A program made the position numbers and the translations under genes. The notes beneath the pieces are model-generated. The model was not told where the DNA came from. It worked only from the letters and a program-made list of their open reading frames with translations, and ran no database searches. Shown here one piece after another: positions 17,312 to 57,621 of a stretch of DNA of 64,000 nucleotides (positions are counted from its first letter, which is position 1; every line of letters starts with the position of its first letter). The stretch covers positions 1 to 64,000 of the forward strand of contig CACFGV010000009.1 in the NCBI GenBank assembly GCA_902565895.1, given 5' to 3'. The DNA is from K189A clade bacterium. GTDB taxonomy: Bacteria > Pseudomonadota > Gammaproteobacteria > Pseudomonadales > Azotimanducaceae.

Positions 17312-18634
17312 ATGCAGTCATCACAACACGCGTCGCAAATTGGGTTCGACTACGCAGACGAACCCCTGGTAGCGCTGAAGCCCACTCGCGAAGCCGGACT
17401 CCAACTGCTCGAGCAGTTTTTGCCCAAAGCAGGTCGTCTTTATCAGGCTCACCGCAATGACGATCTCGGCCCAACAGAGCACCGCAATGTGTCGCGGCTG
17501 TCGCCCTACCTGCGTAGGCGCTTGTTGTCAGAGCAAGAGGTACTGGCAGCGGTGCTTTCTCGACACAGCAACTCTGATGCCTTCAAGTTCGTGCAAGAAG
17601 TGTTTTGGCGGACCTACTGGAAGGGCTGGCTAGAGCACCGTCCAATGTTATGGCAGGGCTATCAGGAGGACCTGGCGGAGGTTCACAGCCTTATGCAAAA
17701 CAACGCGTGGCGTCTGGACAGCTACACGCGCGCGATCACAGGACAGACGGAAATACAGCCGTTTAATGGATGGGTACAAGAACTCATCGAAACTGGGTAC
17801 TTACATAACCATGCACGTATGTGGTTCGCCAGCATCTGGATATTCACCCTGGGGCTGCCGTGGCAACTTGGCGCTGACTTCTTTTTGCGCCACTTGCTAG
17901 ACGGTGACCCAGCAGCCAATACGCTGGGCTGGCGTTGGGTCGCAGGCTTGCATACTAAGGGCAAAACTTACTTAGCCTCGGCCTCGAATATTAGAAAATG
18001 CGGAGCCGCTCGGGTCGCCAGCGAATGCAATCACGACGCCGGACTCGCACGCTTAGCGACTTCGGCGCAGCCGCCAGAAGAGACGCTTTCTCCCAGGGCT
18101 TTGCAGATGCAGCAGGTGCCGTGGCCTGCGCCATATAAGGCCGCTGGGACTGACCATGGTACCGTTGCGGTGTTACTGACCGAGGAAGATTTAGCCCTGG
18201 ACCTGCCGCTGTCGCCGGGGGGCGTGGTTGCGCTGAGACCGCTACCGCGAAGCGTAGTTGAGCCAACTTCACCCCAAGTGCAGCAGTTCGGCGAAGCAGC
18301 GGTTGCAGACGCATTGAGTCGAGCGAAAACCGCTTTTGCGTCCACGTTGTGGGCGCCCTGCACGCTAGCTGCCTCTGCAGAAGAAATTGTCAGCTGGGCG
18401 GAACAACATGGTTTTACCGAGATTCTATGTGCCTATGCGCCCAGTGGGCCGGTTCGGCAACTAATGCCTCAGCTTGTCAGTCGTTTAGCCGCCCGCGGCA
18501 TTCGACTCACTGAGTTTATGCGCGACTACGATCGCCTGGTATGGCCCCATGCTCAGAAGGGTTTCTTTCAACTTGGTAAGCGCATCCCAGACTTCCTCTC
18601 GGCGATGGAGCTGGGTGATGGATTGAGCAGCTAG
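17312..18634 (+). CDS. photolyase/cryptochrome-like flavoprotein with swapped domain order
   Basis: 440 residues. Residues about 20-235 are the helical FAD-binding domain of photolyases and cryptochromes: SRLSPYLRRRLLSE, FWRTYWKGW, the FNGWVQELIETGYLHNHARM segment, DGDPAANTLGWRWVAG and GKTYLASASNIRKC. Canonical photolyases have an alpha/beta antenna domain before this one; here the protein starts almost directly with it. Instead the C-terminal part (about 280-435) looks like that missing domain, with a SAEEIVSWAEQHGFTEIL helix-strand unit, a SRLAARGIRLTEF unit and the closing KGFFQLGKRIP typical of its end. This suggests a circular permutation. Light-dependent DNA repair or signalling is a family-based guess. 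The start ATG lacks a strong ribosome site. Confidence 0.82.
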   Translation: MQSSQHASQIGFDYADEPLVALKPTREAGLQLLEQFLPKAGRLYQAHRNDDLGPTEHRNVSRLSPYLRRRLLSEQEVLAAVLSRHSNSDAFKFVQEVFWRTYWKGWLEHRPMLWQGYQEDLAEVHSLMQNNAWRLDSYTRAITGQTEIQPFNGWVQELIETGYLHNHARMWFASIWIFTLGLPWQLGADFFLRHLLDGDPAANTLGWRWVAGLHTKGKTYLASASNIRKCGAARVASECNHDAGLARLATSAQPPEETLSPRALQMQQVPWPAPYKAAGTDHGTVAVLLTEEDLALDLPLSPGGVVALRPLPRSVVEPTSPQVQQFGEAAVADALSRAKTAFASTLWAPCTLAASAEEIVSWAEQHGFTEILCAYAPSGPVRQLMPQLVSRLAARGIRLTEFMRDYDRLVWPHAQKGFFQLGKRIPDFLSAMELGDGLSS

Positions 18635-43022: not shown

Positions 43023-44612
43023 CTATAAAGCAGGGTTTTTGCCCTGTTCGCGGTGTGCCTCGCGCAAACTTCGGTAAAGACTGATCATCATCATTATCAG
43101 AATAATAGTGAAAGGAAATGCAGTAGCCAGGGCTAGTGCTTGCAGCGATGCAAGACCTCCGCCTAACAGTAACGATATTCCGACAAGGCCAAGAGTAATG
43201 CACCAGAAAATTCGTTGGGCTAGCGGAGTATCGGTCTTTCCGCCGGCGGTCATTGTATCTATCACCAATGATCCGCTGTCCATCGAAGTGACAAAGAATA
43301 TCAGCACCAAAGTTATGCCTACCCCAGAGGTTAGCCACGCTATTGGAAATTCTGCGAGAAAGATAAATAGCGTTAGTTCTGCTTTGAACGCCTTAACGCT
43401 GTCGGCCACACTCATGATCCCCTGATCGAAATATTGCAGCATTGCGGTGTGGCCGAAGATGGTCATCCAGACAAGAAAAATCAATGACGGCGCGAGTATG
43501 GTCACAAAAACAAATTCGCGGACAGTGCGGCCGGTAGAAATTCTCGCGATGAACATGCCAACAAAGGGCGAGAAAGCGATCCACCAAGCCCAATAAAAAG
43601 TAGTCCAGCCATGCATATAATAGTCGTCATCTCGACCCACCCAACTGCTCAATTGGGGAATCGATTCAATGTATGACCATGCGTAAACCGGAAGTTGACG
43701 AACAATGTCCATGGTCGGTCCCACCAGCAACACAAAAAGACCCAGTGCAGCCGCTAACCCCATATTGAATTCGCTTAATCGGCGTATTCCGCCATCAAGG
43801 CCGCGGACCAATGAGACCAGAGCGATGCCGGTAATGACTGCGACCACGATCAGGTTGGTGAAAGCGCCTGAGGGGATGTCGAAAAGAAATTTTAGGCCTG
43901 CGGCGGCCTGCTCAGCACCGTATCCCAAAGACGTGGCCAGTCCGAATAGCGTTGCAAACACCGCAATGATGTCGATGATGTGACCTGGCCAGCCCCATGT
44001 CTTATCGCCAAAGATTGGATAACAAGTAGAGCGAATCAGTAGCGGTAGGCCGCGGTTATAGCAAAAAAACGCCAGTGCTAAACCCACCAGAGCATAGACA
44101 GCCCAGGGGTGGAAAGCCCAATGATATACGGTTGTCGCCATTGCAAGGCGATACAAGGCCTCGCCCTGTAGCTCTGCGTTTAATGGCGGGGTGAGCGCGT
44201 GGTTCATAGGCTCTAGCACGCCGTAAAACATTATGCCGATGCCAATGCCAGCCGCGAACAGCATACATACCCAGCTTGAGCGGCTGAACAAAGGCTTAGC
44301 CTCTGCACCTCCAATGCGAATACGTCCTGCCGGTGAGACTGCAAGCAAGATACAGAACAACAGCACTATGTTCATGCTGGCCATGAAGAACCAGTCGAGA
44401 TTCTCGGTGAGCCATAAGCGCATGGTTACGAACGTGGATGCGGCAACGTCAGGAAAGGTCAGTGTGAAAGCGATAAACAGCATGATCGTTACACTGCTTA
44501 TCAAGAAGACGGGATGATGAAAATCCAAACCAAACGTCGTGCGGTTGTGTTCACCGACGGAGTGGCTATGAGGGTATGGGCTGACGGCGGCTAAGGGCTT
44601 GCTCGGGGGCAA
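43023..44612 (-). CDS. BCCT-family betaine/choline/carnitine transporter
   Basis: 529 residues with 12 predicted membrane segments. The BCCT hallmark GWTTFYWAWWIAFSPFVGMF (about residues 333-352) contains the aromatic box tryptophans, followed by IARISTGRTVREF. It imports quaternary ammonium or zwitterionic compounds with Na+ or H+. The start codon is TTG 44612 with GGAG before it; no ATG is near. It is divergent from the TauD dioxygenase and selenoprotein operon, with 192 bases between starts. The 3' end meets a 199-base gap before the TonB receptor start. Long cytosolic termini for osmosensing are not obvious. Confidence 0.92.
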   Translation of the reverse strand: MPPSKPLAAVSPYPHSHSVGEHNRTTFGLDFHHPVFLISSVTIMLFIAFTLTFPDVAASTFVTMRLWLTENLDWFFMASMNIVLLFCILLAVSPAGRIRIGGAEAKPLFSRSSWVCMLFAAGIGIGIMFYGVLEPMNHALTPPLNAELQGEALYRLAMATTVYHWAFHPWAVYALVGLALAFFCYNRGLPLLIRSTCYPIFGDKTWGWPGHIIDIIAVFATLFGLATSLGYGAEQAAAGLKFLFDIPSGAFTNLIVVAVITGIALVSLVRGLDGGIRRLSEFNMGLAAALGLFVLLVGPTMDIVRQLPVYAWSYIESIPQLSSWVGRDDDYYMHGWTTFYWAWWIAFSPFVGMFIARISTGRTVREFVFVTILAPSLIFLVWMTIFGHTAMLQYFDQGIMSVADSVKAFKAELTLFIFLAEFPIAWLTSGVGITLVLIFFVTSMDSGSLVIDTMTAGGKTDTPLAQRIFWCITLGLVGISLLLGGGLASLQALALATAFPFTIILIMMMISLYRSLREAHREQGKNPAL

Positions 44613-44804
44613 AGGTGCTCCGATTTCGGCGAATCAACCCAGACCGTAACACAAAAATTGACAACAAGGCTTTTCTGGTTTGGGTAGGGCGCTTGTTTGT
44701 AGCTCGAGATCATCCACTCAGCGCGTGGCCAGCCGTAAGGATTTTTAAGCAATCGGCGTGCGCTCTTGGTAGGCTGTTGCAGGTCGGGGGAATGGGAGCA
44801 CGCT

Positions 44805-45650
44805 TTGACAACACCGCATTTGCAGCAAGCTAGCAGTTACCAGCTGGCGTTCACCTGCCTGACCCCAAAATTTGGCGTGACGCTGTCGGGCACGCGGCAG
44901 TTGGTAGATTTTGATGATGGTGAGATCGACGCACTGATTCAGCTTGCTGCGGAACGCGGAGTGCTGGTTATGCGAGATCAGCATATGTCAGCGCAACAGC
45001 AGGCAGACTTTGCTCATCGCTTAGGCACACCGCTTTTGTCGCCCGCTAACAAAGGCAAGTTGCCGGATGAGCTGTTGCTGATCCAAGCCAATGAGCGCTC
45101 CAAACACGCCGCTGGCACTGGTTGGCACTCAGATGTCTCCAGCGCGATTAAGCCACCAGGGTTGTCGATGTTGAGAATGGAAGTGGTACCTGAAAGTGGC
45201 GGAGACACGTTATTTGCAGACATGCGTCAGGTGTTTGCGGCGTTGTCGCCAACCCTGCAAGCCTTTTTGCAGACATTACACGCCCGCCACGATCCACGCG
45301 GCCATTATCTCTATCTAAGTGGCGCTAAGCGCTTGGACGAGTTGCCTTCAGCGCAACACCCAGTGGTGCGTTCCCACCCATTAACGGGTGATCGTGCGCT
45401 GTATGTGAATGATGGGTTTGTTGGCAAGATCGTAGAGTTGGATAGAGCTGAAAGTAAGGCCCTTTTGAGTCTGCTGTACGACAAAGTGGCGTACTCCGTG
45501 AGCTGTCAATGTCGCGTGCAGTGGCAGCCGAACACAGTCGTGTTTTGGGATAACCGCATCGTCCAGCATCATGCTGCGTTTGACTATTGGCCCGCGACCC
45601 GTCGCGGTTATCGTGTCACCATTGAAGGTGAAGAGCCGGTATTGGTCTAG
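44805..45650 (+). CDS. TauD/TfdA-family Fe(II)/2-oxoglutarate dioxygenase (second)
   Basis: 281 residues from TTG 44805, which has GGGAG (44795-44799) at 5 bases; the frame is open to 44766 without a ribosome site. Iron ligands are His108 and Asp110 (GWHSDVS) and the His in IVQHHAAFDY; the 2OG-binding arginine is in RRGYRVTIEG. It shares a short 9-base gap with the downstream selenoprotein. Substrates of the family include taurine, alpha-keto acids of herbicides and gamma-butyrobetaine. The neighbouring BCCT transporter makes a betaine-like or carnitine-like substrate a reasonable but untested guess. Confidence 0.88.
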   Translation: MTTPHLQQASSYQLAFTCLTPKFGVTLSGTRQLVDFDDGEIDALIQLAAERGVLVMRDQHMSAQQQADFAHRLGTPLLSPANKGKLPDELLLIQANERSKHAAGTGWHSDVSSAIKPPGLSMLRMEVVPESGGDTLFADMRQVFAALSPTLQAFLQTLHARHDPRGHYLYLSGAKRLDELPSAQHPVVRSHPLTGDRALYVNDGFVGKIVELDRAESKALLSLLYDKVAYSVSCQCRVQWQPNTVVFWDNRIVQHHAAFDYWPATRRGYRVTIEGEEPVLV

Positions 45651-45659
45651 GGATTTAAC

Positions 45660-46613
45660 ATGACTTTACACCATGACATTGAACGACTTGCGCAACCCAA
45701 TGACGTGCCCGTTGGCTATATGCAAAGGCTGCGGGAATATTATTTGGCATTAGGGTATGACAACCCCTACCGGTGGGCGCATTACGCCGAGGTGCCGTTT
45801 TGCAGACCGACCAAACCGATAGCACAAAGTCGCGTAGGGTTAGTCACCACTGCCGCACCGTACAAAGAAGGGGCAGGAGAGCAAGGCGCTCGGGCGCCCT
45901 ATAACGCCGCTGCAAAGTTTTACCAGGTTTATAGCCATGCCAGTGATCGCGAGCAATTTCTTGGTATTTCGCATCTTGGGTACGACCGCAAGTATTCCAC
46001 CGCGCAAGATCGCAACAGTTATTTTCCCATGGTGGCACTGCAACAGGCGGCGGCGAAGGGGCTCATTGGCGCTGTGGCAGCACGCTATTACGGTGCGCCA
46101 ACCAATCGTAGTCAGGTCACCACTGTGCAGCAGGATTGCGCGGAGCTCTTGGCGCTGATGCAGCAGGACGAAGTTGATCTGGCGATTTTGGTGCCCAGCT
46201 GACCGGTTTGCCATCAGACCGTGAGTCTGATTGCTAGGCACTTAGAAGCCCATGGCATTCCGTCGGTCATTATGGGCTCTGCCAAGGACATTGTTGAATA
46301 TTGCGGCGTACCGCGATTTGTATTCAGCGATTTTCCGTTGGGTAACTCTGCGGGTAAGCCCAATGACCCAGCGTCCCAAGCTGACACTCTGGCCCTAGCC
46401 CTGCAGCTACTTGAGTCCGCTCCCGGACCCCGAACAACGGTGCAGTCCCCCCAGCGATGGAGCGATGAGGTGGCCTGGAAGGACGAGTTTCAGAATGTAC
46501 GCTTCATGTCTGCTGAGGAGATCGCACGCCGCCGAGCGGAGTTCGACAAAATTAAGGAGGTTGGACAAAAAGTAAGAGATGACACTGAGGCGGCGCGTGC
46601 GCGCACAAGCTAG
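45660..46613 (+). CDS. GrdB-like selenoprotein with in-frame UGA (U-P-V-C motif)
   Basis: 317 residues read through TGA 46200-46202, Sec at 181. Halves 1-180 and 182-317 are each incomplete alone: the first ends VDLAILVPS, then Sec, then PVCHQTVSLIARHLE, giving U-P-V-C with Cys184. I recall this motif, including a CHQT core, from the glycine/sarcosine/betaine/D-proline reductase selenoprotein B (GrdB/PrdB) family. Clostridial GrdB has Sec in U-x-x-C and works with GrdA, GrdC and others, none of which appear here, so in this aerobe it is a stand-alone relative with unknown reaction. Continuous homology across the stop and a SECIS hairpin argue against a pseudogene. It lies in one operon with the dioxygenase. 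Confidence 0.88.
46210..46234 (+). promoter_or_regulatory. candidate bacterial SECIS element of the GrdB-like selenoprotein
   Basis: ATCAGAC (46213-46219), loop CGTGA (46220-46224), GTCTGAT (46225-46231): a perfect 7-bp stem with a 5-base loop; beyond a C-T mismatch, GC (46210-46211) pairs with GC (46233-46234). The loop begins 17 bases after the TGA and G is its second base followed by U. It also fits the known bacterial SECIS pattern, and is stronger than the ArsC-family one. Confidence 0.78.
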
Positions 46614-46690: not shown

Positions 46691-48268
46691 ATGAGTTTGA
46701 CCGCCTGGTCGTGGGTTTTTTTGTTCGGTTATGTGGGACTGATGGTGGGCATTGGTGTGTACGCTCAAAGGCGAATTAAACACGCAGATGACTTTGCTAC
46801 AGCCCGTGGTGCCTATGGGCCGGTATTTCTAGCTTTGGCCTTCGCCGCATCCACAGCCAGTGGTGCGACCTTTCTTGGCAGCCCAGCCATGTCTTACGAG
46901 TGGGGACTGAGTACCGTCTGGATGCATTTCCTTTACCCCATTGGCGTCTACGTCGGCATTCTCATTTCCATGCGGTTGGTCGCTACCTCTGGGAATCGTT
47001 TTGGTAATCGATCGATTCCTGAATACCTCGGTGATCGTTACCAGTCAGATACTATGCGGTTGATGGTGTCGCTATTGTCCTTGGTGTTGTTCTTCTATTT
47101 AGCGGGGCAGTTAGTCTCTGGCGTGGTCATGTTTGAAATTATGCTTGGCTTAGATTCTTCCTGGGCTCTAGGCATCACTGCGCTGGTGTTATTGGTTTAT
47201 GTCGTACTTGGCGGTGCCCATGCCGATATTCTTACTGATGGTGTGCAGGGCGCGATGATGCTGATGTTGGCGCTGGTGGTGATTGTGCTCACGGTTTCAG
47301 GCTGGGGTGTGGAAGGTGGCTTTGCAGGTGTTGTCGACAATCTGCGTGAGCAGGACCCGGTTTTGGTAGCGCCGACGAACCCAAACACCGCGCTTTTTCA
47401 CTCTTGGTGGTCAATCTTCGTCATCGCTTTCGCGCACTTGCCTCTGGGCTTATTACCTCATCTGGGTAACAAGCTATGGGCACTGGATTCCAGTAACAGC
47501 CGTCTGCAGTTTGTAAAGTTAGCAGCGGTATTTGGTCTTACCCTGGGTTTATTAGGTTTGGGTGGACTGCTGTCTCGGGTCTACTTTGGCGACGCACTTT
47601 ACGCGGAGGGGGCGAATCCAAATCAAGCGTTGCCGCTGCTGTTTATTGAACTTTTTCCAACATGGCTGGCGGCATTGATTGGTGTCGGTGTGTTGTCTGC
47701 GGTGATGAGTACAGCCGATGGGTTAGTGGTGTCATCCTCGCAAATCATTGCTAACGACTTATACCGACGTACCATAGCGCCAATCATGCATCCAAATTTG
47801 TCGCAACAAGAGCTTGATCAACGAGTGTTGAAAATCAGTCGTTGGTCCACCGTTGCGGTGTTAGCAATCTGTGCGGCCATGGCCTGGTCACTAATGGATG
47901 TGAATGTCTCCCTGGTGGTATGGATCGGTGTGGGCGGCATGATGGCGGCTTTTGCGGGGCCCTTGGTGCTGGGCGCATTATGGTCGGGTGTAACTCTGAA
48001 AGGTGCCTATGCAGGCCTGCTTGGGGGGTTCACTACGTTTATTATAATTCATACTCAAGTGCTTGAACCTGATTGGTTTTCTGGTGTTGGGCTAGAGGGC
48101 GCTGTGACCTGGTTACGGGGCGAGGGTCCAAATCCTTATTCATGTGCGGTTATGGGAGAAATTGTCTCTTTGCTGCTGACTTTCGTGGTATCAAAACGGA
48201 CAGCGCCTTTGCCTGAAGAGCACCTCAACGCGCTGTTTTCCGACGTTCCGAATGAAACATCGGTTTAG
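46691..48268 (+). CDS. sodium:solute symporter family protein
   Basis: 525 residues, about 13 membrane helices. Recognised by the N-terminal AQRRIKHADDFATARGAYG, AFAASTASGATFLGSPAMSY and the RSIPEYLGDRYQSDTM helix typical of the SSS/PutP family, plus ATGVLSAVMSTADGLVVSS-like helix (sodium site: GVLSAVMSTADG). It imports an organic solute with Na+. It starts 77 bases after the selenoprotein on the same strand with GAGAGGGG ahead. In this operon the symporter may take up the same compound as the dioxygenase acts on or a product. Substrate unresolved. Confidence 0.9.
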   Translation: MSLTAWSWVFLFGYVGLMVGIGVYAQRRIKHADDFATARGAYGPVFLALAFAASTASGATFLGSPAMSYEWGLSTVWMHFLYPIGVYVGILISMRLVATSGNRFGNRSIPEYLGDRYQSDTMRLMVSLLSLVLFFYLAGQLVSGVVMFEIMLGLDSSWALGITALVLLVYVVLGGAHADILTDGVQGAMMLMLALVVIVLTVSGWGVEGGFAGVVDNLREQDPVLVAPTNPNTALFHSWWSIFVIAFAHLPLGLLPHLGNKLWALDSSNSRLQFVKLAAVFGLTLGLLGLGGLLSRVYFGDALYAEGANPNQALPLLFIELFPTWLAALIGVGVLSAVMSTADGLVVSSSQIIANDLYRRTIAPIMHPNLSQQELDQRVLKISRWSTVAVLAICAAMAWSLMDVNVSLVVWIGVGGMMAAFAGPLVLGALWSGVTLKGAYAGLLGGFTTFIIIHTQVLEPDWFSGVGLEGAVTWLRGEGPNPYSCAVMGEIVSLLLTFVVSKRTAPLPEEHLNALFSDVPNETSV

Positions 48269-48277
48269 GCGGCGATC

Positions 48278-48895
48278 GTGATAAAACTTGATCATTTGAT
48301 GTACGCGGTACCGGATCTTGAACTCGGCATGCAGCAGATCCATGAACTAACCGGCATCAAACCGGATATGGGTGGCTCCCACCCGGGGTTAGGTACGCGT
48401 AACGCGCTTCTGTCTTTTTCTGCAGATCAGTACCTAGAGATTATTGCACCAGATCCGGAGCAAGATTTGGCGGGAACAACTGGCGAGTTATTGGTGCGGA
48501 ATCCGAACAGTGGCCTTCGGGCTTGGGCAGTGGCGAGCGACGACTTGGCGGCTATTCGAGACATGGCAACACAACAAAGCGTAGCCGCGCGCGAGATCGT
48601 CGATATGGCACGCACCACCCCGGATGGTATGGCGCTGGCCTGGAAATTGTTGTTTCTGCATGGGTCCCACTGGCCATTCTTTATCGACTGGCAAGGGTCG
48701 CCCCATCCGGCGTTGACCGCGCCCCAGGGATGTCAGTTATTGGATTTTGTCGTAACCACCCCGGACCCAAGGCAATATGCCGCGCTGTTGGCGGCATTGG
48801 ATTTACAGGTAGAAGTCAAAGCGGGCACTTTCGGCTTCAATGCCAAGTTGGACACACCCAATGGTGTAGTGGAGTTGCCGTCTTGGTTTCATTAA
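48278..48895 (+). CDS. VOC-superfamily glyoxalase-like protein
   Basis: 205 residues. The start IKLDHLMYAVPDLELGMQQIHEL and later LDFVVTTPDP are the paired beta-alpha-beta-beta-beta modules of the vicinal oxygen chelate fold, the longer glyoxalase-like type (PF13468-like). These metal-dependent enzymes isomerise, cleave or dioxygenate small substrates. The start is GTG 48278, 9 bases after the symporter stop, so it belongs to the same transcription unit. Function unknown. Confidence 0.8.
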   Translation: MIKLDHLMYAVPDLELGMQQIHELTGIKPDMGGSHPGLGTRNALLSFSADQYLEIIAPDPEQDLAGTTGELLVRNPNSGLRAWAVASDDLAAIRDMATQQSVAAREIVDMARTTPDGMALAWKLLFLHGSHWPFFIDWQGSPHPALTAPQGCQLLDFVVTTPDPRQYAALLAALDLQVEVKAGTFGFNAKLDTPNGVVELPSWFH

Positions 48896-48992: not shown

Positions 48993-49556
48993 TCAACGGT
49001 TGCTGCGATGGTACTCGTCGTTTGGCACCATGGCTGTGCCGCTAGCCACCCGATTGGTCATGTTAAAAAATGCAGCGACATTGATAATGTCCCAAATATC
49101 CCGGTCGCTGAAACCAACATCCCGCAGGCTTTGTCGATGCGCTTCCTCAACGGTATAGCTTGCACTGGTGAGTAGCGCCGTGAAGTCGAGCATGGCGCGT
49201 TGTCGCGCGTCTAATTCAGCGGTTCGATAATTCATTACCAATTGCTCGCCAAGAATAGGATTGCCAGACAACTCTCTTACTGCGGCCCCGTGTGCGGTTA
49301 GGCAGTAAAAACAGCGGTTAATCGAAGACACCACCACAGCAATCATTTCTCGTTCCAGCTTGGTCAGACCGCTATCGGCCAACATCAACTCGTTATACAA
49401 ACCGGTGAATGCGTTGAGTTTATCAATGCTGAAGGCATGGGCCTGCAATACATTGGGCACCATGCCGAGTTTGTCCGTGCAGATGTCGAAATACTTTTGT
49501 GTGGCATCAGGTAACGGATCAAGCTGAGGTAGGTCCAATGCGGTAGGGGTCTTCAT
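48993..49556 (-). CDS. AhpD/carboxymuconolactone-decarboxylase-like peroxidase-related protein
   Basis: 187 residues. The core CFYCLTAHGAAV (about residues 80-91), with the C-x-x-C-x-x-x-H pattern, is the AhpD signature; the two cysteines and histidine form the alkylhydroperoxidase site. The following ELSGNPILG and DFSDRDIWDI-like end match the group named uncharacterised peroxidase-related enzymes. ATG has AGGA upstream. It heads a minus-strand group with the LLM oxidoreductase 24 bases upstream of its start. No AhpC or AhpF partner in the window. Confidence 0.88.
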   Translation of the reverse strand: MKTPTALDLPQLDPLPDATQKYFDICTDKLGMVPNVLQAHAFSIDKLNAFTGLYNELMLADSGLTKLEREMIAVVVSSINRCFYCLTAHGAAVRELSGNPILGEQLVMNYRTAELDARQRAMLDFTALLTSASYTVEEAHRQSLRDVGFSDRDIWDIINVAAFFNMTNRVASGTAMVPNDEYHRSNR

Positions 49557-50531: not shown

Positions 50532-52514
50532 TTAGGGTGGCGCGACGAGGGCCTTACGTAACGCCTGTGTCGGGTCCAGGGCGGTACCCCTTTTTTCTTG
50601 TTCCAGTTTGCGTTGTGCATTGGCAACAAAGGTAGCGAGATCGGCTTGATACCCTGCTGCATCAACAAAGGGGTGCGGATCGCCATTTGCACGATGCGGT
50701 AACGCATCACGCCGCTGGAATACTCGTCCCATAGATTGATGATTGGGCAGGCTGACCTGGATGTCATCTTGCATTGACTTTAAGCGTTGGTAGCTGTCGA
50801 TGTAGGTTTCAGTGCGCGCAACGCCAGAAAAGTTCAATCCAACGCCGCCCAAGGTCAACGCGGTGTGGCGGTCGTCGCCGTCGTGTACTTGGTAGCGAAC
50901 ACTTAGCACGCCGGTTGTATGCCCTGGGGTGTTATACAGGGTAAAGGTATTGTCACCCAGACTGATTTCGTCGCCGTCCTTGGCTACGATGTCGCGACGT
51001 GGTGTTGGGATGTAGAACAGCGGCGAGTCGGGTTCTGCCAAGGCGATTTGCCAGTCTTGCTCGGTCATAACTACTTTCGTGCCGTAGTTTTTTTGAAAGT
51101 GTGCCGAGCCACCCGCGTGATCGAAATGGCCGTGGGTATTAATCAGGTATTTTATGTCAGCCGGGTCAAATCCCAGTTGGCGGATATTGCGCTCTAGTAG
51201 GTTAATCCACTTGCCGTACAAGGAGTCGATCAGCACCAAGCCGTCGCCGGTATCAATAAGATAGGCCGCTACCCAGTCGATGCCGACATAGTAGACATTG
51301 TCAAAAATCTGAAACGGCTGAACGTATTGCTGTTTTGGGTCCTCCCAGCTTTGCCATAAGATTTTCAGTGGTCCGGACAAGGGTGTTCCTAGGTAGCCGT
51401 CCTGGTCGCACTCGACGCAGCGGACATCGTCGATAGGCTGATTGTTCGCCAGTGCTGTGACCCAATCACGCACGCTGACGCCGTTGGCGGCGTAGGTATA
51501 AAACTGTGGTCGTGCCAACACCGTATGGGACGCACCGCCAGTGATAAAACTTTTGAAGTTACTGACCTCGGCGCGAATGTCCGCCTGATTTGCGCTTATG
51601 GCTTCCAACAAGTCCACATCTGTCTGTCCGGACAGTGCAAGGAAGCGTTTTTGTACGCTGTCTTGTGCGGCATCGTAGGCCGCAAATTGCACATTAGGGT
51701 GCTGCTTGGCCGCGGCGATGTACAACGATTCATAGGTCATCGTGTCACTTTGTAAGTCACCAAAACCGGCCTCGTTAGTAATGAAGTTAAACGTGCCCCA
51801 AGATTCGTGGGGGCGAGTATCGTTATTCATGCGCCGATAGCCTCCGGCGCCGTCTCCCAATTGGGTGACCGTTGCCTGGGAATAGTGATCCGCAATAAGT
51901 GCTGCATAGAAAGGCGAGGGAATTGCACCTGCTGATGAGCCCGTGACGAAAATCTGTTCGGGCTTGGATACATTGGCGTAGGTCCAGTCCAGAACCGCCT
52001 GCATATTTGCTCGGCCCTGGTGATGAATGGTCAGCGGTTGTTGCTCCGGGGTTAGCCCTGGATAGACGGTATCACTCGAGCCGATGTGGACATCACCGCT
52101 GCAATAAGGAGCAAAGACTACCGTGTAGTCGGCGAATGGGTTCGCTGGATTATCGAGATTAAAGATGCCGGTCTGATAGCCTTTTAGCTGATCTACATTG
52201 ATGGTGTAAGTGGGTTGCATCTGTGCATCGCAGTTTTTGCGAAACCAACATGCGCCGCCACCTTGCATGTACACCAACAGTTTTTTTGCATTGCCGGCGC
52301 GAGTTAAAAATTTGTAGTCGCTACCGTCGGAACAAACGGCGGGACGCCCAGGCACAATTTCTTGCCATTTGGCCACCGAACCTTTTGTGGTGGCTAGTAC
52401 CTGGGTGGTGCTTGCTTCGGTGGGTGCGCTGTTTAGCCCACTGTTCTGGGTACTGCACGCCGACGTTAATAGCACCAGCACAGTGAACAGAGTTGTTCTT
52501 GTTTCAAAAGCCAT
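50532..52514 (-). CDS. lipoprotein fusion: pectin-acetylesterase/Notum-like esterase plus metallo-beta-lactamase-fold hydrolase
   Basis: About 660 residues. A lipobox LTSAC gives a lipid-anchored cysteine after a 20-residue signal. Residues about 30-370 resemble pectin-acetylesterase/Notum-like hydrolases: MQGGGACWF, FAPYCSGDVHIGSS, VTGSSAGAIPSPFY (Ser nucleophile). Residues about 390-640 are a metallo-beta-lactamase-fold domain with HGHFDHAGG (zinc ligands) and NTPGHTTGVLSV. Both catalytic domains are complete. ATG 52514 follows GGGGGGAG, though close (2 bases); a longer form starts at 52577. The combination in one chain suggests two successive hydrolyses of one substrate. Confidence 0.83.
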   Translation of the reverse strand: MAFETRTTLFTVLVLLTSACSTQNSGLNSAPTEASTTQVLATTKGSVAKWQEIVPGRPAVCSDGSDYKFLTRAGNAKKLLVYMQGGGACWFRKNCDAQMQPTYTINVDQLKGYQTGIFNLDNPANPFADYTVVFAPYCSGDVHIGSSDTVYPGLTPEQQPLTIHHQGRANMQAVLDWTYANVSKPEQIFVTGSSAGAIPSPFYAALIADHYSQATVTQLGDGAGGYRRMNNDTRPHESWGTFNFITNEAGFGDLQSDTMTYESLYIAAAKQHPNVQFAAYDAAQDSVQKRFLALSGQTDVDLLEAISANQADIRAEVSNFKSFITGGASHTVLARPQFYTYAANGVSVRDWVTALANNQPIDDVRCVECDQDGYLGTPLSGPLKILWQSWEDPKQQYVQPFQIFDNVYYVGIDWVAAYLIDTGDGLVLIDSLYGKWINLLERNIRQLGFDPADIKYLINTHGHFDHAGGSAHFQKNYGTKVVMTEQDWQIALAEPDSPLFYIPTPRRDIVAKDGDEISLGDNTFTLYNTPGHTTGVLSVRYQVHDGDDRHTALTLGGVGLNFSGVARTETYIDSYQRLKSMQDDIQVSLPNHQSMGRVFQRRDALPHRANGDPHPFVDAAGYQADLATFVANAQRKLEQEKRGTALDPTQALRKALVAPP

Positions 52515-52679
52515 GACTCCCCCCAAGCTATGTTTTTCGATGACCTTGACCTTACCAGCGGCGGTACCTCCCTCCAAGTGAATCCGGTGGCGATCCCAGA
52601 AGATGTGGCTTTGACATTGATCAGGTCGGCTTCCATGCTCGGCAGGTCTACCAACAATGTTGTTGTATAGGAGCAGACC

Positions 52680-54317
52680 ATGCTGACCTTGTTCAAAGCG
52701 CGTTCAGTCATCACTATGAATGATTCGCTGCCCCGTGCCAGCGCGGTATTAGTTCGTGATGGCGTAGTCCTGGAAGTTGGGGAAGAAGCGACGATGGCGC
52801 CTTGGTTGCGCGGCCAAGATTACGTGGTAGACGATCAATTTGCAGACAAAATCATTTGCCCGGGATTTATTGATCCGCATTTGCATCCCAGTATGGCCGC
52901 GGTGTTGCTGCCCATGGAATTCATTACTGCGATGCGTTGGAAATTGCCCTGGGGAGAAGTCGAGCCAGTGACAACCGAAGCGGCCTTTGATCAACGTATG
53001 GCCACGCTAGTAGCAGAAAAAGACCCCCAGCAGCCCCTGTTCATTTGGGGTTATCACCAGCTTTGGCATGGCGCGATGAGTAAGACGCGCATCGAGTCCA
53101 TTGCAGGCCGGCGGCCCACTGTCGTTTGGCATCGGTCATTTCATGAGCTTTATATGAACAGTTCAGCCATGGAGATGGTGGGTGTCGTTGCCGAGGACAT
53201 TAAGCCGGGTATGCAAATAAATGTTGAGCGCGGGCATTTTTACGAAGGTGGCTTAGGTTATGCCATCAATCGTTTAAATCCGTGGATTCTTGCTCCGGAT
53301 AAATACGCAGCAGGTCTGCAACGGTTAAAACAAGTCGTACATCACGGCGGCCATACCAGTATTGGCGATCTGGCGACCGGTATGTTCAACTTCAGCGCAG
53401 AAGCCGAGGCTTTGAGCCAGTATTTAGAGGGTGATGATGTGCCGTTTCGCACGCGCTTGGTTGCGCATGGTACGGTTCTAACCAAGGGCGGGGTGCCGCC
53501 CACGCAGGGCCCGGAACTCGCTGAGGCGCTGCAACAGCGCAACAGCCATCGGCTGCATTTTGGGCGACACATTAAGTTATTTAGTGATGGTGCATTTTTT
53601 AGCCAGCTGGCGCAGCTACAACAACCCGGTTATATCGATGGGCATAGTGGTGAATGGCTAACCACGCCGGAGATCCTAGAGCAACATATTCGGGCGTATT
53701 GGCATGCCGGGTATCAAATACATGTGCACGTTACTGGGGATCTGGGGTTACAGCTGACCCTGGATATATTGCAAAAAATGCAGGACGAGAAGCCACGCTT
53801 CAATCATGGCTTTACCCTTGAGCACTTTGGTTTCAGTACACCAGAACAGATTCGTCAGATCAAAGCACTTGGGGCACAGGTTTCTGCCAATGTCTATTAC
53901 TTGCATGAACTCTCTGACAGCTACAGTCAATCTGGTATCGGCTATGAGAGAGCGTCTCAGATGGCCCGATTGGGCAGCTGTTTTAACGCGGGCATTAACA
54001 CCACGGTGCACTCTGACTTCACCATGGCGCCAGCGGAGCCCCTGAACAGCATGTGGGTGGCTGTTAATCGAGTGAACCATGCCGGTGACGTTATGGGTGC
54101 AACCGAGTGTCTGACCCCGCACCAAGCGTTGCAAGCCATCACCATCAATGCTGCTCACGTGATTGGTATGGCAGATATTACGGGCAGCATTCGCTCTGGT
54201 AAGCGCGCTGACTTTACTGTTCTGGATCAAGACCCTTTAACTTGTGATCCTATGTCGCTGCGCGATATTGGTATTTCTGCCACGGTATTTGAGGGTAAGG
54301 TTTTTCCCTTATCATGA
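52680..54317 (+). CDS. amidohydrolase-family metal-dependent hydrolase (YtcJ-like)
   Basis: 545 residues. N-terminal ARSVITMNDSLPRASAVLVRDG, the metal-binding GFIDPHLHPS, later HVHVTGDLG and HSDFTMAPAEPLNSMW, with a C-terminal MADITGSIRSGKRADFTVLDQDP segment typical of the YtcJ/LAF3 amidohydrolases that deacetylate or hydrolyse amide-like substrates. The ATG has GGAG upstream at 7 bases. The downstream CobW-like gene starts inside its stop (ATGA), so they are translationally coupled. Substrate unknown. Confidence 0.9.
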   Translation: MLTLFKARSVITMNDSLPRASAVLVRDGVVLEVGEEATMAPWLRGQDYVVDDQFADKIICPGFIDPHLHPSMAAVLLPMEFITAMRWKLPWGEVEPVTTEAAFDQRMATLVAEKDPQQPLFIWGYHQLWHGAMSKTRIESIAGRRPTVVWHRSFHELYMNSSAMEMVGVVAEDIKPGMQINVERGHFYEGGLGYAINRLNPWILAPDKYAAGLQRLKQVVHHGGHTSIGDLATGMFNFSAEAEALSQYLEGDDVPFRTRLVAHGTVLTKGGVPPTQGPELAEALQQRNSHRLHFGRHIKLFSDGAFFSQLAQLQQPGYIDGHSGEWLTTPEILEQHIRAYWHAGYQIHVHVTGDLGLQLTLDILQKMQDEKPRFNHGFTLEHFGFSTPEQIRQIKALGAQVSANVYYLHELSDSYSQSGIGYERASQMARLGSCFNAGINTTVHSDFTMAPAEPLNSMWVAVNRVNHAGDVMGATECLTPHQALQAITINAAHVIGMADITGSIRSGKRADFTVLDQDPLTCDPMSLRDIGISATVFEGKVFPLS

Positions 54318-55189
54318 CTTATCCATCTCCCACACAAATTCCAGTCACGTTGATTGCCGGCTATTTAGGTGCCGGTAAAACCACGCTCGTAAATAAACTC
54401 CTTAACAGTAAAAAATTACCCGCGAATACCGCCGTATTGGTAAATGATTTCGGTGACATCAATATCGACGAACAACTCATCAAGAACGACTCTCAAGTGG
54501 ACAATGTCATTGGACTGGCAAATGGCTGCATTTGTTGCAGCATCGCAGATGACTTAACCGCCGCGCTAGAACAGGTGCGTGCATCGGGTGTAGAACGCGT
54601 AATTCTTGAGTGCAGTGGTGTGGCTGAACCTGCGAAGGCACGCCAGCAGTGCTATTACCCGGGTTTTTACCCCCAAGCCTGCATCGTATTGGTGGATGCC
54701 CAGGCCCACGATCAGCGCTGTGATGACAAATACGTGGGTGTATTAGCGCGTGCGCAAGTGCAGCAGGCTGATCTGCTGGTGGTTACAAAAACAGCATTGA
54801 ATTCGCAGTTTCAATTGGTGGCGTTGCAACCCAGTGTTGCGGTTGAAGACGCGGGCTGTTTGGATCTGGTACTGGGATGGCAGGCGCAAGACTTTGCACC
54901 AGATGTTCATGGGGATGAGCAACAGCCGCACTTTGCGGCAAAGACCTGGCGCATAACAGAAACCGTTAGCAGTGATGCTGTGCGAGCTTATCTGTTGGGG
55001 CAACCGCAATCACTGCAGCGGGTCAAGGGCTATCTGCAGACCCACGAGGGTATCGTAGAGGTGCAGCAGGTGGGTAGGCAGATTGAAATTCATGCACGCC
55101 CGCAACTCATCAAGGGTTCTCAGGAATTGGGTTTGGTGTTTATCGGTTATCGTGGCGAGGAACTGCCCCAGCAAGCGCCGCTGTTTTAG
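54314..55189 (+). CDS. CobW-family (G3E) GTP-binding metallochaperone-like protein
   Basis: 291 residues. The Walker A GYLGAGKTT (16-24), the metal-binding CxCC motif (Cys72, Cys74, Cys75 in GCICCSIADD) and ECSGVAEP, then a C-terminal CobW domain. The guanine motif NKxD is altered to TKTA (LVVTKTALN), so nucleotide specificity is uncertain. Such proteins deliver Zn, Co or Fe to partner enzymes. It overlaps the amidohydrolase stop by 4 bases, so I infer that it loads the metal of that enzyme. Confidence 0.9.
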   Translation: MTYPSPTQIPVTLIAGYLGAGKTTLVNKLLNSKKLPANTAVLVNDFGDINIDEQLIKNDSQVDNVIGLANGCICCSIADDLTAALEQVRASGVERVILECSGVAEPAKARQQCYYPGFYPQACIVLVDAQAHDQRCDDKYVGVLARAQVQQADLLVVTKTALNSQFQLVALQPSVAVEDAGCLDLVLGWQAQDFAPDVHGDEQQPHFAAKTWRITETVSSDAVRAYLLGQPQSLQRVKGYLQTHEGIVEVQQVGRQIEIHARPQLIKGSQELGLVFIGYRGEELPQQAPLF

Positions 55190-57621
55190 TCCTTCATCCG
55201 CAGGGATTTTGGATCATAAAAGGGTGCGAATTGAACGGTGACTGGATAGCGTTGCAGCGCGACCTCTACCTCGAAGCGACCTGCATCTAACCAGCTTTCA
55301 GTAACACCCTCAGGGTAGCTCAGTTCAGCAATGGCCAAGCTCTTGTCGACCCGATGCCCCCAGGCGGCAGAGGTTGTCAGCCCCACGGCGACGCCGTCGC
55401 GATATATCGGTTCGTCATGAATCATAAATGGTGCGTTGCTGCCCTCGATGGCAAGATGAACCAAGCGTCGAGTTTGCACCCCTTGTTGTTCTGCCAGAGC
55501 AGCATGACCGATAAAATCCGTTTTATCCTTAGCTACGGCAAAGCCCAGTCCGGCCTGCAATGGTGTGATGTGATCGTAGATGTCGTGGCCCCAATGCCGG
55601 TAGCCCTTTTCCATGCGGCAGGCGTTCATAGCGTGGAATCCGGCGGGTGTGATTTGCAAATCGCTACCTTCGCTCATCAGTTGTTGCCAAAGACTGCACG
55701 CCTGGGTTTTTGCCACATACAACTCGTATCCGCGTTCACCGACATAGCTGAGGCGACTCGCCCGAACACTGAGGTTATTGCTCTGAAAAACGCCGGAGTG
55801 GTAATAGGGCAGCGCATTGATGGCGCTGTTGTCACTAAACAGAAGTGTCAGTAGTTGGTTGGACTTGGGCCCCATAACTCCAATGATTGCGAGGTCGTGA
55901 TCTTGTTCAATCTGACAGTCGAAACCCTTGGCGTGACGGCGTAACCACGCCCCGTCGCGTCCCTCGCTGGCGCAAGGTGCGACCACCATGAACTGGTCAG
56001 CTGCCGTGCGGGTAATGGTGACATCGGCTTCAATGCCCGCATCTTCGTTCAGCCATTGGGTATAAACAATTTGATCGACGGCCACATCCAACTGGTTGCT
56101 GCAAACATGCTGTAAGCATGGCAACGCCTCGGTACCTGATACCCAAAATACCGGGTAGCTGGACTGATCAAACAGGGCGACATGATCTCTTACGGCGGTG
56201 CACTCGTGGGCGCAGGCATTGAACCAATTGGGTTTAGAGTAGGTGTGTCGGTATTCGTTTTCGTCGCCATGGGCGTACCAGTTGGGGCGTTCCCATCCCG
56301 CCAGTTCGCCCATCACCGCTCCGTGTGATAATAACGTTTCGTGTAAGGGGCTAAGGCGCGCGTTGCGGCTGGTGGTGTACTGTTGATGGGGCCAGTGCAT
56401 GGCGTACAGCAGTCCAAGTGTTTCTTCGGTGCGTTGGCGCAGAAACTCTGGTTCTGTCTGAAAGGCGAAGGTCCGGCGTACATCAACATCCCATAGGTCC
56501 ATAGGTGGTTTGCCGTCGCGCATCCATTCGGCAAGCACCTTACCTGCGCCGCCAGAGGACTGAATGCCAATAGAGTTAAAACCACAGGCGACAAATAAGT
56601 TCTGCACTTCCGGAGTTTCGCCTAACAAATAGCGATCGTCGACGGTAAAACTTTCCGGGCCGTTAAAAAACAACTGAATACCGGCGTCGGCCAGTTCTGG
56701 AAAGCGCTGGGTCGCTTTATTGAGCATGGGTTCGATGTGCGCTAAATCGTCGGGCAGGGCGTCGAAGCAGAAGCTTTCTGGAATACCCTGCATCCCCCAG
56801 GGTTTGGCGCGTTCTTCAAAAAAGCCAAGCAACAATTTGCCGGCATCGAATTTGTAATACACCTGTTCATCGGGTACCCGTAGCGTAGGACGCATGTCGG
56901 TGAAGGTGGGCAGTGGTTCCGTCACCAGATAAAAGTGTTCTGCGGCGTGCAGGGGCAGATGTACATTATGTTGGCTGGCAAATTCCCGCGACCACATGCC
57001 GCCAGTGATGACCACCTGGTGCGCTTGCACAAGTGTGCCATCCTCCAAGTACACCCCCATGACTTGATCACCGTCCAACGCCAAACGCTGTACCGGTGTG
57101 TGTTCAAAAATCCGCGCGCCGCCGTTACGTGCACCCTTCGCCAACGCCAAGGTAGTGTCGACTGGGTTTGTTTGGCCATCACCGGGTAGAAATACACCGC
57201 CATGCATGTCATCGGTAGCAATGCCCGGCCAGCGTTCGTTAACAAAATCTGGTCCGATCAATTCGCATTGCACACCAAAAGCATTCGCCATTGTCGCTTG
57301 ACGCTTAAGCTCTTCTAAACGCTCGTCGTTTAGTGCCAAGGTCATAGAGCCGGTAGTTTGATAGCCGGTCTCTTGGCCGGTTTCAGCCGCGAGGTTGGCG
57401 AACAGTTCAGTGGAATATTGTGCTAACTGGGTCATGTTCTTTGACGCTCGCAGCTGGCCAACCAATCCGGCAGCGTGCCAAGTCGTGCCGCAGGTCAACT
57501 GCTTGCGCTCGAACAGCACGACGTCATTGAGTCCTAACTTGGTCAGGTGATAAGCCACAGAGCAGCCGACGATGCCGCCACCGATGATGACGATGTCTGC
57601 GCGATCCGGGGGTGTGCTCAT
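55186..57621 (-). CDS. dimethylglycine/sarcosine dehydrogenase-like FAD enzyme with GcvT domain
   Basis: 811 residues. FAD-binding IVIIGGGIVGCSVAYHL (residues about 10-26), TWHAAGLVGQ with the histidine usually covalently linked to FAD, a DAO domain to about residue 400 and a C-terminal GcvT-like aminomethyltransferase domain (about 420-800) that transfers the methylene group to tetrahydrofolate. It demethylates dimethylglycine or sarcosine-type N-methyl amines in glycine-betaine degradation. It converges with the CobW gene, stops overlapping by 4 bases. Start ATG follows a GCAGCGGTT upstream without a strong ribosome site. The exact N-methyl substrate is uncertain. Confidence 0.9.
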   Translation of the reverse strand: MSTPPDRADIVIIGGGIVGCSVAYHLTKLGLNDVVLFERKQLTCGTTWHAAGLVGQLRASKNMTQLAQYSTELFANLAAETGQETGYQTTGSMTLALNDERLEELKRQATMANAFGVQCELIGPDFVNERWPGIATDDMHGGVFLPGDGQTNPVDTTLALAKGARNGGARIFEHTPVQRLALDGDQVMGVYLEDGTLVQAHQVVITGGMWSREFASQHNVHLPLHAAEHFYLVTEPLPTFTDMRPTLRVPDEQVYYKFDAGKLLLGFFEERAKPWGMQGIPESFCFDALPDDLAHIEPMLNKATQRFPELADAGIQLFFNGPESFTVDDRYLLGETPEVQNLFVACGFNSIGIQSSGGAGKVLAEWMRDGKPPMDLWDVDVRRTFAFQTEPEFLRQRTEETLGLLYAMHWPHQQYTTSRNARLSPLHETLLSHGAVMGELAGWERPNWYAHGDENEYRHTYSKPNWFNACAHECTAVRDHVALFDQSSYPVFWVSGTEALPCLQHVCSNQLDVAVDQIVYTQWLNEDAGIEADVTITRTAADQFMVVAPCASEGRDGAWLRRHAKGFDCQIEQDHDLAIIGVMGPKSNQLLTLLFSDNSAINALPYYHSGVFQSNNLSVRASRLSYVGERGYELYVAKTQACSLWQQLMSEGSDLQITPAGFHAMNACRMEKGYRHWGHDIYDHITPLQAGLGFAVAKDKTDFIGHAALAEQQGVQTRRLVHLAIEGSNAPFMIHDEPIYRDGVAVGLTTSAAWGHRVDKSLAIAELSYPEGVTESWLDAGRFEVEVALQRYPVTVQFAPFYDPKSLRMKD

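Follow-up and report, generated by a model that had tools for sequence, protein, structure and literature searches.

A probable selenoprotein gene of the PrdB/GrdB superfamily in a K189A clade gammaproteobacterium, with Sec and Cys homologues and no visible partner subunit

A selenoprotein gene read across an in-frame UGA

The 64,000-nt stretch of contig CACFGV010000009.1 analysed here (the window) very probably carries, at 45660–46613, a single selenoprotein gene in which UGA-181 is decoded as Sec by means of a SECIS hairpin. Judging from comparative sequence analysis, its product is a stand-alone member of the PrdB/GrdB superfamily that belongs to a clade of its own and has several Sec-containing paralogues (Table 1). 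The TGA is the sole interruption of the frame, and on read-through the sequence around residue 181 is VPS-U-PVCHQT (S-U-P-V-C-H-Q). Since a standard gene call splits the frame into two at the TGA, the protein is easily missed. A preliminary description, made from the DNA alone, had joined the two same-frame segments around the single TGA into one 317-residue protein; the read-through frame confirms this, and the observation of one selenoprotein gene across the TGA is almost certainly correct. The nearest named relative of the protein (82%) is from Gammaproteobacteria bacterium TMED92, an unclassified gammaproteobacterium, and relatives such as this one suggest that the organism is marine.

Table 1. 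Features of the window at and around the selenoprotein gene
Feature	Position	Strand	Remarks
BCCT family transporter	43023–44612	-	PF02028, 4e-167; divergent neighbour
TauD/TfdA family Fe(II)/2-oxoglutarate dioxygenase	44766–45650	+	PF02668, 1.5e-53; ends 9 bases before the ATG
PrdB/GrdB-like selenoprotein gene (predicted)	45660–46613	+	ATG 45660, TAG 46611–46613; 317 residues with TGA = Sec
In-frame UGA, putative Sec codon	46200–46202	+	residue 181, motif U-P-V-C; TGA/Cys alternation in homologues
Bacterial SECIS hairpin (predicted)	46210–46234	+	stem 46213–46219/46225–46231, loop CGTGA 46220–46224; covariation, GU loop, paralogue-only model
Sodium:solute symporter (SSF)	46691–48268	+	PF00474, 2.9e-48; 77 bases after the selenoprotein gene
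Glyoxalase_3 (VOC) protein	48278–48895	+	PF13468, 2.8e-36; 9 bases after the symporter
Peroxidase-related AhpD/CMD gene	48993–49556	other strand	just beyond the putative operon

Alternation of UGA and Cys codons, and coding beyond the UGA

Comparison with Cys homologues, which the preliminary description had proposed as a check, bears out the Sec reading: of the 112 homologous loci (numbered L, with genomes numbered G) readable at residue 181, TGA occupies this position in 41, and the other 71 encode Cys there (TGC in 52, TGT in 19). Among the 41 TGA loci are L030 and L063, apparently one and the same contig, as well as the paralogues L002–L004 and L058; L057 ends before residue 181 and the G030 fragment falls short of it. 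The named loci (n = 80) comprise 9 Sec and 71 Cys forms. We also searched a set of 58 genomes (the organism's own, 36 of the same genus and 21 from other families of the order), in which 111 homologue matches at E ≤ 1e-10 were found in 35 genomes. An in-frame TGA lies inside 109 of these, its position having been read for a subset of the loci only; the remaining two stop before, or start after, residue 181, so that neither spans it. No Cys form was found among the same-genus matches of this search.

The TGA stands at the identical place in 12 orthologues sharing 63–82% identity, each from a different genome (L030–L041), and a base error at 46200–46202, which the preliminary description had named as a possible objection, is for that reason very unlikely. 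The identity to seven orthologues (L030–L036) is 67–82% before the TGA and 73–84% past it, reaching 81–84% past the TGA in six close orthologues. Nucleotide changes past the TGA relative to L030–L036 number 68–85 at codon position 3 and 11–23 at position 2. On these alignments, coding persists beyond TGA 46200–46202. Further stops were seen at residues 305–312 in L037, L039, L045 and L048 and at residue 15 in L053.

The SECIS hairpin

The preliminary description had reported a 7-bp hairpin with G-U in its loop starting directly after the TGA. The hairpin is real, with 7/7 stem pairs and additional outer pairs 46210/46234 and 46211/46233, but its stem begins 10 bases later than stated. The structure tested consisted of the stem 13–19/25–31 (T of TGA = 0) and the two outer pairs. 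The window contains eight TGA read-through sites that are preceded by >100 and followed by >45 open codons, and TGA 46200 is the only one combining 7/7 pairs with a loop GT, the runner-up having 4/7 pairs and no GT. GT occupies loop positions 2–3 in 38/38 distinct Sec sequences as opposed to 0/68 distinct Cys sequences, and was present in 20/20 paralogue loci read. It opens the Val codon at residue U+7; Val is found there in the Sec forms listed, and Leu, Gln or Ile in most of the Cys forms.

Across the 38 distinct Sec sequences, 88.6% of the cells were paired, compared with 19–33% when the partners were slid, 7.6–49.4% when the whole structure was moved, and a mean of 83.4% (maximum 85.7% of 500) when the partners were shuffled. 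In the 68 distinct Cys sequences the proportion was 70.1%, equal to that of their own shuffles (70.5%) and above the slid versions (13.6–53.4%). A second alignment held 17 of 20 paralogues (L180, equal to L176; L186, containing an N; and L185, a near-copy of L184, were left out), three of them from the organism's own genome and none from the clade of the window protein. Here 81.7% of the cells were paired versus 25.5–41.8% in slid versions, and two-sided changes were seen in 33 cells versus 12.5 expected from shuffling (0/500 as high) and 2–9 in slid versions.

Since L001 matched nothing in Rfam at E ≤ 1, the SECIS was tested with a purpose-built covariance model made from the 17 paralogues. 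In answer to the SECIS search suggested for the region past the TGA, this model ranked 46200–46241 first in the window with 45.3 bits (E = 1e-7), the second match scoring 10.8 bits. With the same model three Cys homologues scored 16.7–22.7 bits, overlapping the weakest true Sec genes (18.8–24.9 bits), so the scores partly reflect coding similarity. Folding energies were -11.4 kcal/mol for Sec and -5.3 kcal/mol for Cys stretches, computed as single-sequence folds with base composition uncontrolled; since the Cys loci are mostly from Polynucleobacter, this gap was not used as proof. In several Sec stretches the single-sequence fold differs from the consensus stem.

Sec machinery

The organism's own assembly (68.8% complete, 87 contigs) yielded no selA at E ≤ 0.001 and neither selB nor tRNA-Sec over the cut-off. 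Its best selB match (173.6 bits against a cut-off of 242), a 421-aa frame, was rejected as EF-Tu-like by length and place, and tRNA-Sec matches of up to 40.7 bits (cut-off 47) were not counted. The preliminary description had held that absence of selB and selC would speak against Sec; neither was found over the cut-off in this assembly, but with a completeness of only 69% and both genes present in same-genus genomes, this does not refute the Sec reading. Over cut-off, selB was found in 26/36 and tRNA-Sec in 22/36 same-genus genomes, and tRNA-Sec (anticodon tca) lies beside selB in 4/5 same-genus loci scanned with ARAGORN. A run of selA, selB and tRNA-Sec is present in G057, a genome of a different family, where 173 bases separate selA from the start of a paralogue. 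The whole group, with the PrdB-like selenoprotein gene adjoining selA, selB and tRNA-Sec, spans L188:6820–11328, and this gene may be a main client of the Sec system there.

Paralogues

The organism's own genome contains four PrdB/GrdB-like genes with one TGA in each, and same-genus genomes have up to seven matches each; in a maximum-likelihood tree the paralogues are spread over several clades. In paralogue clade D, a TauD gene lies directly downstream in 5/6 fetched loci, the sixth reaching the contig end. Five more selenoprotein-TauD pairs, not assigned to a clade, are seen in G011, G016, G017, G020 and G022. Two further observations concern individual paralogues. 1) The paralogue of G008 (L189:5431–6222) has the motif U-P-L-D, in which the second Cys of UxxC is absent, and keeps the GT-loop hairpin; a sulfatase gene ends 56 bases ahead of the match. 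2) In L173, L176 and L179 (about 7–11.5 kb), paralogue B adjoins an Na+-NQR-like gene run on the opposite strand (names assigned by reading).

Family placement, conserved residues and predicted structure

The preliminary description had called the protein GrdB-like. Its place in the GrdB/PrdB superfamily stands, but it is nearer to PrdB (NCBIfam TIGR04483; 4.4e-23, 81.9 bits) than to GrdB (Pfam GRDB, PF07355; 4.3e-7, 30 bits). The latter match passes the gathering cut-off of 22 and covers only profile positions 206–345 of 347, whereas the former does not reach the curated equivalog cut-off of 300 bits, so by this standard the protein is not the PrdB enzyme. PrdB and the C-terminal portion of GrdB are its homologues by sequence, yet it falls in a separate clade. 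A maximum-likelihood tree of 49 rows placed it in a clade of 25 with support 100/100; the outside rows included two clostridial PrdB and two GrdB-type sequences, a long-branch warning applies, and no deep order is claimed.

Residues H105, D109, P123, U/C181, E196, R219 and G228 are common to 48 or 49 of the 49 superfamily rows, and C184 is present in 48. The first alignment used 25 of 81 sequences (the window protein plus 80 named loci); L131, which has a TAG near its end, was left out. An AlphaFold2 model made with 25 sequences had a mean pLDDT of 86.7 and a pTM of 0.88, and predicts an alpha/beta protein with the Sec immediately before a helix. A profile search of the PDB found no relative at E ≤ 1, a single-sequence search giving one chance match; the fold search gave no Foldseek match at E ≤ 0.001, a best VIA-align Z of 7.8, and no thioredoxin-fold protein among those listed. 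This absence of a PDB relative is not evidence for a new fold.

Relatives occur in Polynucleobacter, Alphaproteobacteria, Rokubacteria and marine metagenomes. The preliminary description had placed the known GrdB and PrdB in strict anaerobes; such proteins are not limited to these, given the homologues from Polynucleobacter, Alphaproteobacteria and marine metagenomes.

Missing partner subunits

In D-proline and glycine reductase (PrdA/PrdB and GrdE/GrdB), substrate activation is assisted by a pyruvoyl group that the partner carries. A PrdA/GrdE-type protein (PF09338, E ≤ 0.001) was found in 0/58 genomes, as was GrdA (PF04723), in agreement with the earlier remark that no GrdA or PrdA partner is in sight. 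As positive controls, PF09338 matches PrdA on two clostridial plasmid records and the GrdA profile matches on the one tried. Absence from any single genome is weak evidence, since some genomes are incomplete (37/58 have a completeness of 90% or more and a contamination of 5% or less). Since both profiles gave 0/58 with positive controls, a pyruvoyl mechanism would have no visible partner here. On Peptoclostridium acidaminophilum plasmid EAL2_808p (L165:4612–6633), a single frame, once its Sec TGA is taken as sense, covers a PrdA-like part followed by PrdB, and may be a natural PrdA-PrdB fusion.

Neighbouring genes

From their spacing, the TauD, selenoprotein, symporter and VOC genes look like a four-gene operon. 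The order TauD-selenoprotein-symporter-Glyoxalase_3 is found in the window and in L143–L147, the contig of L148 stopping after the selenoprotein gene. TauD is upstream of the selenoprotein gene in seven genomes (the window and L143–L148), the SSF symporter is at the same place in the window, L143–L147 and L151–L154, and Glyoxalase_3 likewise in L143–L147, L151, L152 and L154. The BCCT transporter, scoring 470 bits with the NCBIfam profile betaine_BCCT (cut-off 650, not reached), also adjoins six close orthologues (L143–L148) and may be linked to the operon.

In the sister subclade L151–L154, a sulfatase (PF00884, read for L152) replaces TauD, the symporter is present in 4/4 and Glyoxalase_3 in 3/4 loci. 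None of TauD, symporter and Glyoxalase_3 was found in the ten other genus loci fetched (L149, L150 and L155–L162). Loci L155–L157 and L159–L161, of another subclade, have an acyl-CoA dehydrogenase near the selenoprotein gene, and four of them an MFS transporter. Since the neighbours differ between subclades, no single pathway is fixed, and since orthologues share ancestry, the neighbour counts are not independent. Moreover, the pairing with TauD is suggestive only, because TauD genes are frequent in the genus (5–21 per genome among 24 searched, the organism's own being one of them). The TauD gene of L066, 4.0 kb upstream, was not counted as adjacent.

In 10 of the 17 non-betaproteobacterial named loci (L064–L070, L072, L073 and L118; Sec in 4 and Cys in 6), the next gene downstream, on the same strand, encodes a family III CoA-transferase (CoA_transf_3), the family being read for L065 and the rest found with a profile made from eight loci; L071, also among the 17, ends too soon to judge. 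No CoA-transferase was found in the flanks fetched for the 63 betaproteobacterial loci. A match in the paralogue locus L182, about 5 kb off and on the other strand, was not counted. The two alphaproteobacterial plasmid copies (Roseomonas and Haematobacter) stand amid unrelated genes.

The oxygen-using genes noted in the preliminary description are present in the window: TauD genes at 44766 and 23827, a P450 at 4223 and a photolyase FAD domain at 17312. Two other regions deserve mention. 1) On the minus strand at 50532–52577, one frame combines a pectinacetylesterase domain (residues 78–258) with a metallo-beta-lactamase fold domain resembling subclass B3; the lactamase profiles listed score below their cut-offs save the class B core domain (103.7 vs 100). 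2) A protein matching both DAO and GCV_T, similar in type to dimethylglycine/sarcosine dehydrogenase or TMAO demethylase (55186–57621, minus strand), adjoins a CobW GTPase (54314–55189, plus strand) near the BCCT transporter, and methylated-amine catabolism is possible for this region.

Possible reaction

We tentatively propose, in a reading that may well prove wrong in part or whole, that the enzyme reductively cleaves an activated C-X bond in a small carboxylic substrate. The selenol of the U-P-x-C pair would attack the activated carbon, X would be released on cleavage, and a selenenylsulfide would form with C184, to be reduced again by cell thiols. Activation would come from the products of neighbouring genes and not from a pyruvoyl group: i) in many relatives a family III CoA-transferase would supply a thioester, and ii) in this genus an oxygenase or a sulfatase might serve. 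The gene order in the window would then correspond to import by the SSF symporter, oxidation by TauD, the selenoenzyme step and the VOC protein. That a GrdB paralogue can serve a different C-X bond has a precedent in FarB/FarE, described as cleaving C-F in an anaerobe (PMC10838667).

It is also possible, if on the unlikely side, that the protein is a thiol/selenol oxidoreductase acting on disulfides, peroxides or persulfides without C-X cleavage. The U-x-x-C pair, the Cys forms in many organisms and the AhpD/CMD gene just past the operon on the other strand are in keeping with such a role, and in the passages compared both marine surveys place the family among thiol redox families (PMC1088965, PMC2398784); however, the conserved H/D/E/R set is common to GrdB and PrdB, and the genes sharing the putative operon code for a dioxygenase, a symporter and a VOC protein, with CoA-transferases in relatives. 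Rather improbable is a non-redox thiol/selenol enzyme (isomerase, lyase or transferase) acting on CoA thioesters or carboxylates with a CoA-transferase as partner. It would account for the family III CoA-transferase adjoining in 10 loci, for the acyl-CoA dehydrogenase near some orthologues and the enoyl-CoA hydratases or AMP ligases near some paralogues (by sequence reading), and for the paralogue that has U-P-L-D in place of the UxxC pair; against it, C184 is kept in 48/49 rows and the characterised superfamily members are, in the passages compared, reductases (PMC13188914, PMC10838667).

It is very unlikely that the protein serves as PrdB in a genuine D-proline reductase. PrdB is its best curated profile, the authors of the GOS survey called the marine homologues PrdB, and the symporter has a sub-threshold similarity to PutP (146 bits, cut-off 515.5); the score of 81.9 bits against a cut-off of 300, the separate clade and the finding of a PrdA/GrdE-type protein in none of the 58 genomes, by a profile that does match on two clostridial plasmids, all speak against it. 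A pseudogene, a sequencing error or plain termination at the UGA, for which the own assembly without Sec genes might be cited, is hardly credible beside the TGA in many species, the Cys counterparts, the coding past the TGA and the SECIS covariation.

Relation to known systems and significance

The family as such is already known, since marine UxxC "PrdB" selenoproteins were reported in 2005 and 2008 as one of the most frequent marine selenoprotein families (PMC1088965, PMC2398784). The passages compared give 42 Sec forms and 1 Cys form of "proline reductase PrdB" for the Sargasso Sea set (PMC1088965), and 235 Sec and 110 Cys PrdB forms for the GOS set, where pfam07355 is named (PMC2398784). 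The "PrdB" selenoproteins of these surveys, set alongside by description and not by sequence, probably include the clade of the window protein. Unlike the present analysis, the surveys give no operon, partner test or clade split in those passages (PMC1088965, PMC2398784). What would be new relative to the passages compared is that the clade is separate and the partner missing, together with the set of paralogues and the links to CoA-transferase and TauD.

Four kinds of proteins are worth comparing: 1) PrdB (TIGR04483) shares U-x-x-C, the H-x-x-x-D motif and Sec with the window protein and is its best curated profile, but has U-G-T-C where the latter has U-P-V-C; the window protein also scores below the cut-off, lies in a separate clade with oxygen-using genes nearby, and has no PrdA-type partner that we could find. 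2) GrdB/GrdF/GrdH of glycine, sarcosine and betaine reductase (PF07355) are homologous over the C-terminal part of GrdB and have Sec at the same place, but the match is restricted to part of the profile, and neither a GrdE-type partner nor GrdA was found in the 58 genomes. 3) The Roseomonas and Haematobacter plasmid proteins, annotated as "glycine/sarcosine/betaine reductase selenoprotein B family protein", are 58.3% (query coverage 91%) and 51.7% (query coverage 93%) identical to the window protein, respectively, but have other neighbours. 4) FarB/FarE, the fluoroacetate reductase of Cloacibacillus porcorum, differs, as far as the passages compared describe it, in coming from an anaerobe, in that FarE is a partner of GrdE type, and in that its operon includes a radical SAM gene (PMC10838667).

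According to the passage compared, 40.4% of Sec users are aerobic (PMC5029168), and a 2026 review, in the part compared, treats PrdB and GrdB in terms of what they do in anaerobes (PMC13188914). Our literature searches on aerobic or proteobacterial PrdB/GrdB-like selenoproteins turned up no functional study of an aerobic member, and no account of the role of PrdB-type selenoproteins in oxygenated water was found in the literature searched, although these rank, in the passage compared, among the most abundant selenoprotein families of the marine GOS survey (PMC2398784). Since the partner subunit was found in 0/58 genomes, the names proline reductase and glycine reductase should not be carried over. 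Speculatively, these proteins could form a widespread aerobic class in which PrdB/GrdB-type selenol/thiol cleavage proceeds without a pyruvoyl partner on CoA thioesters or oxygenase products; one gammaproteobacterial genus would have multiplied the gene into several Sec paralogues in each genome, and freshwater Polynucleobacter would have retained a Cys form of the enzyme. The cultured, named Polynucleobacter strains, which have the Cys form, and the operon partners CoA-transferase, TauD and symporter offer handles for seeking the reaction.
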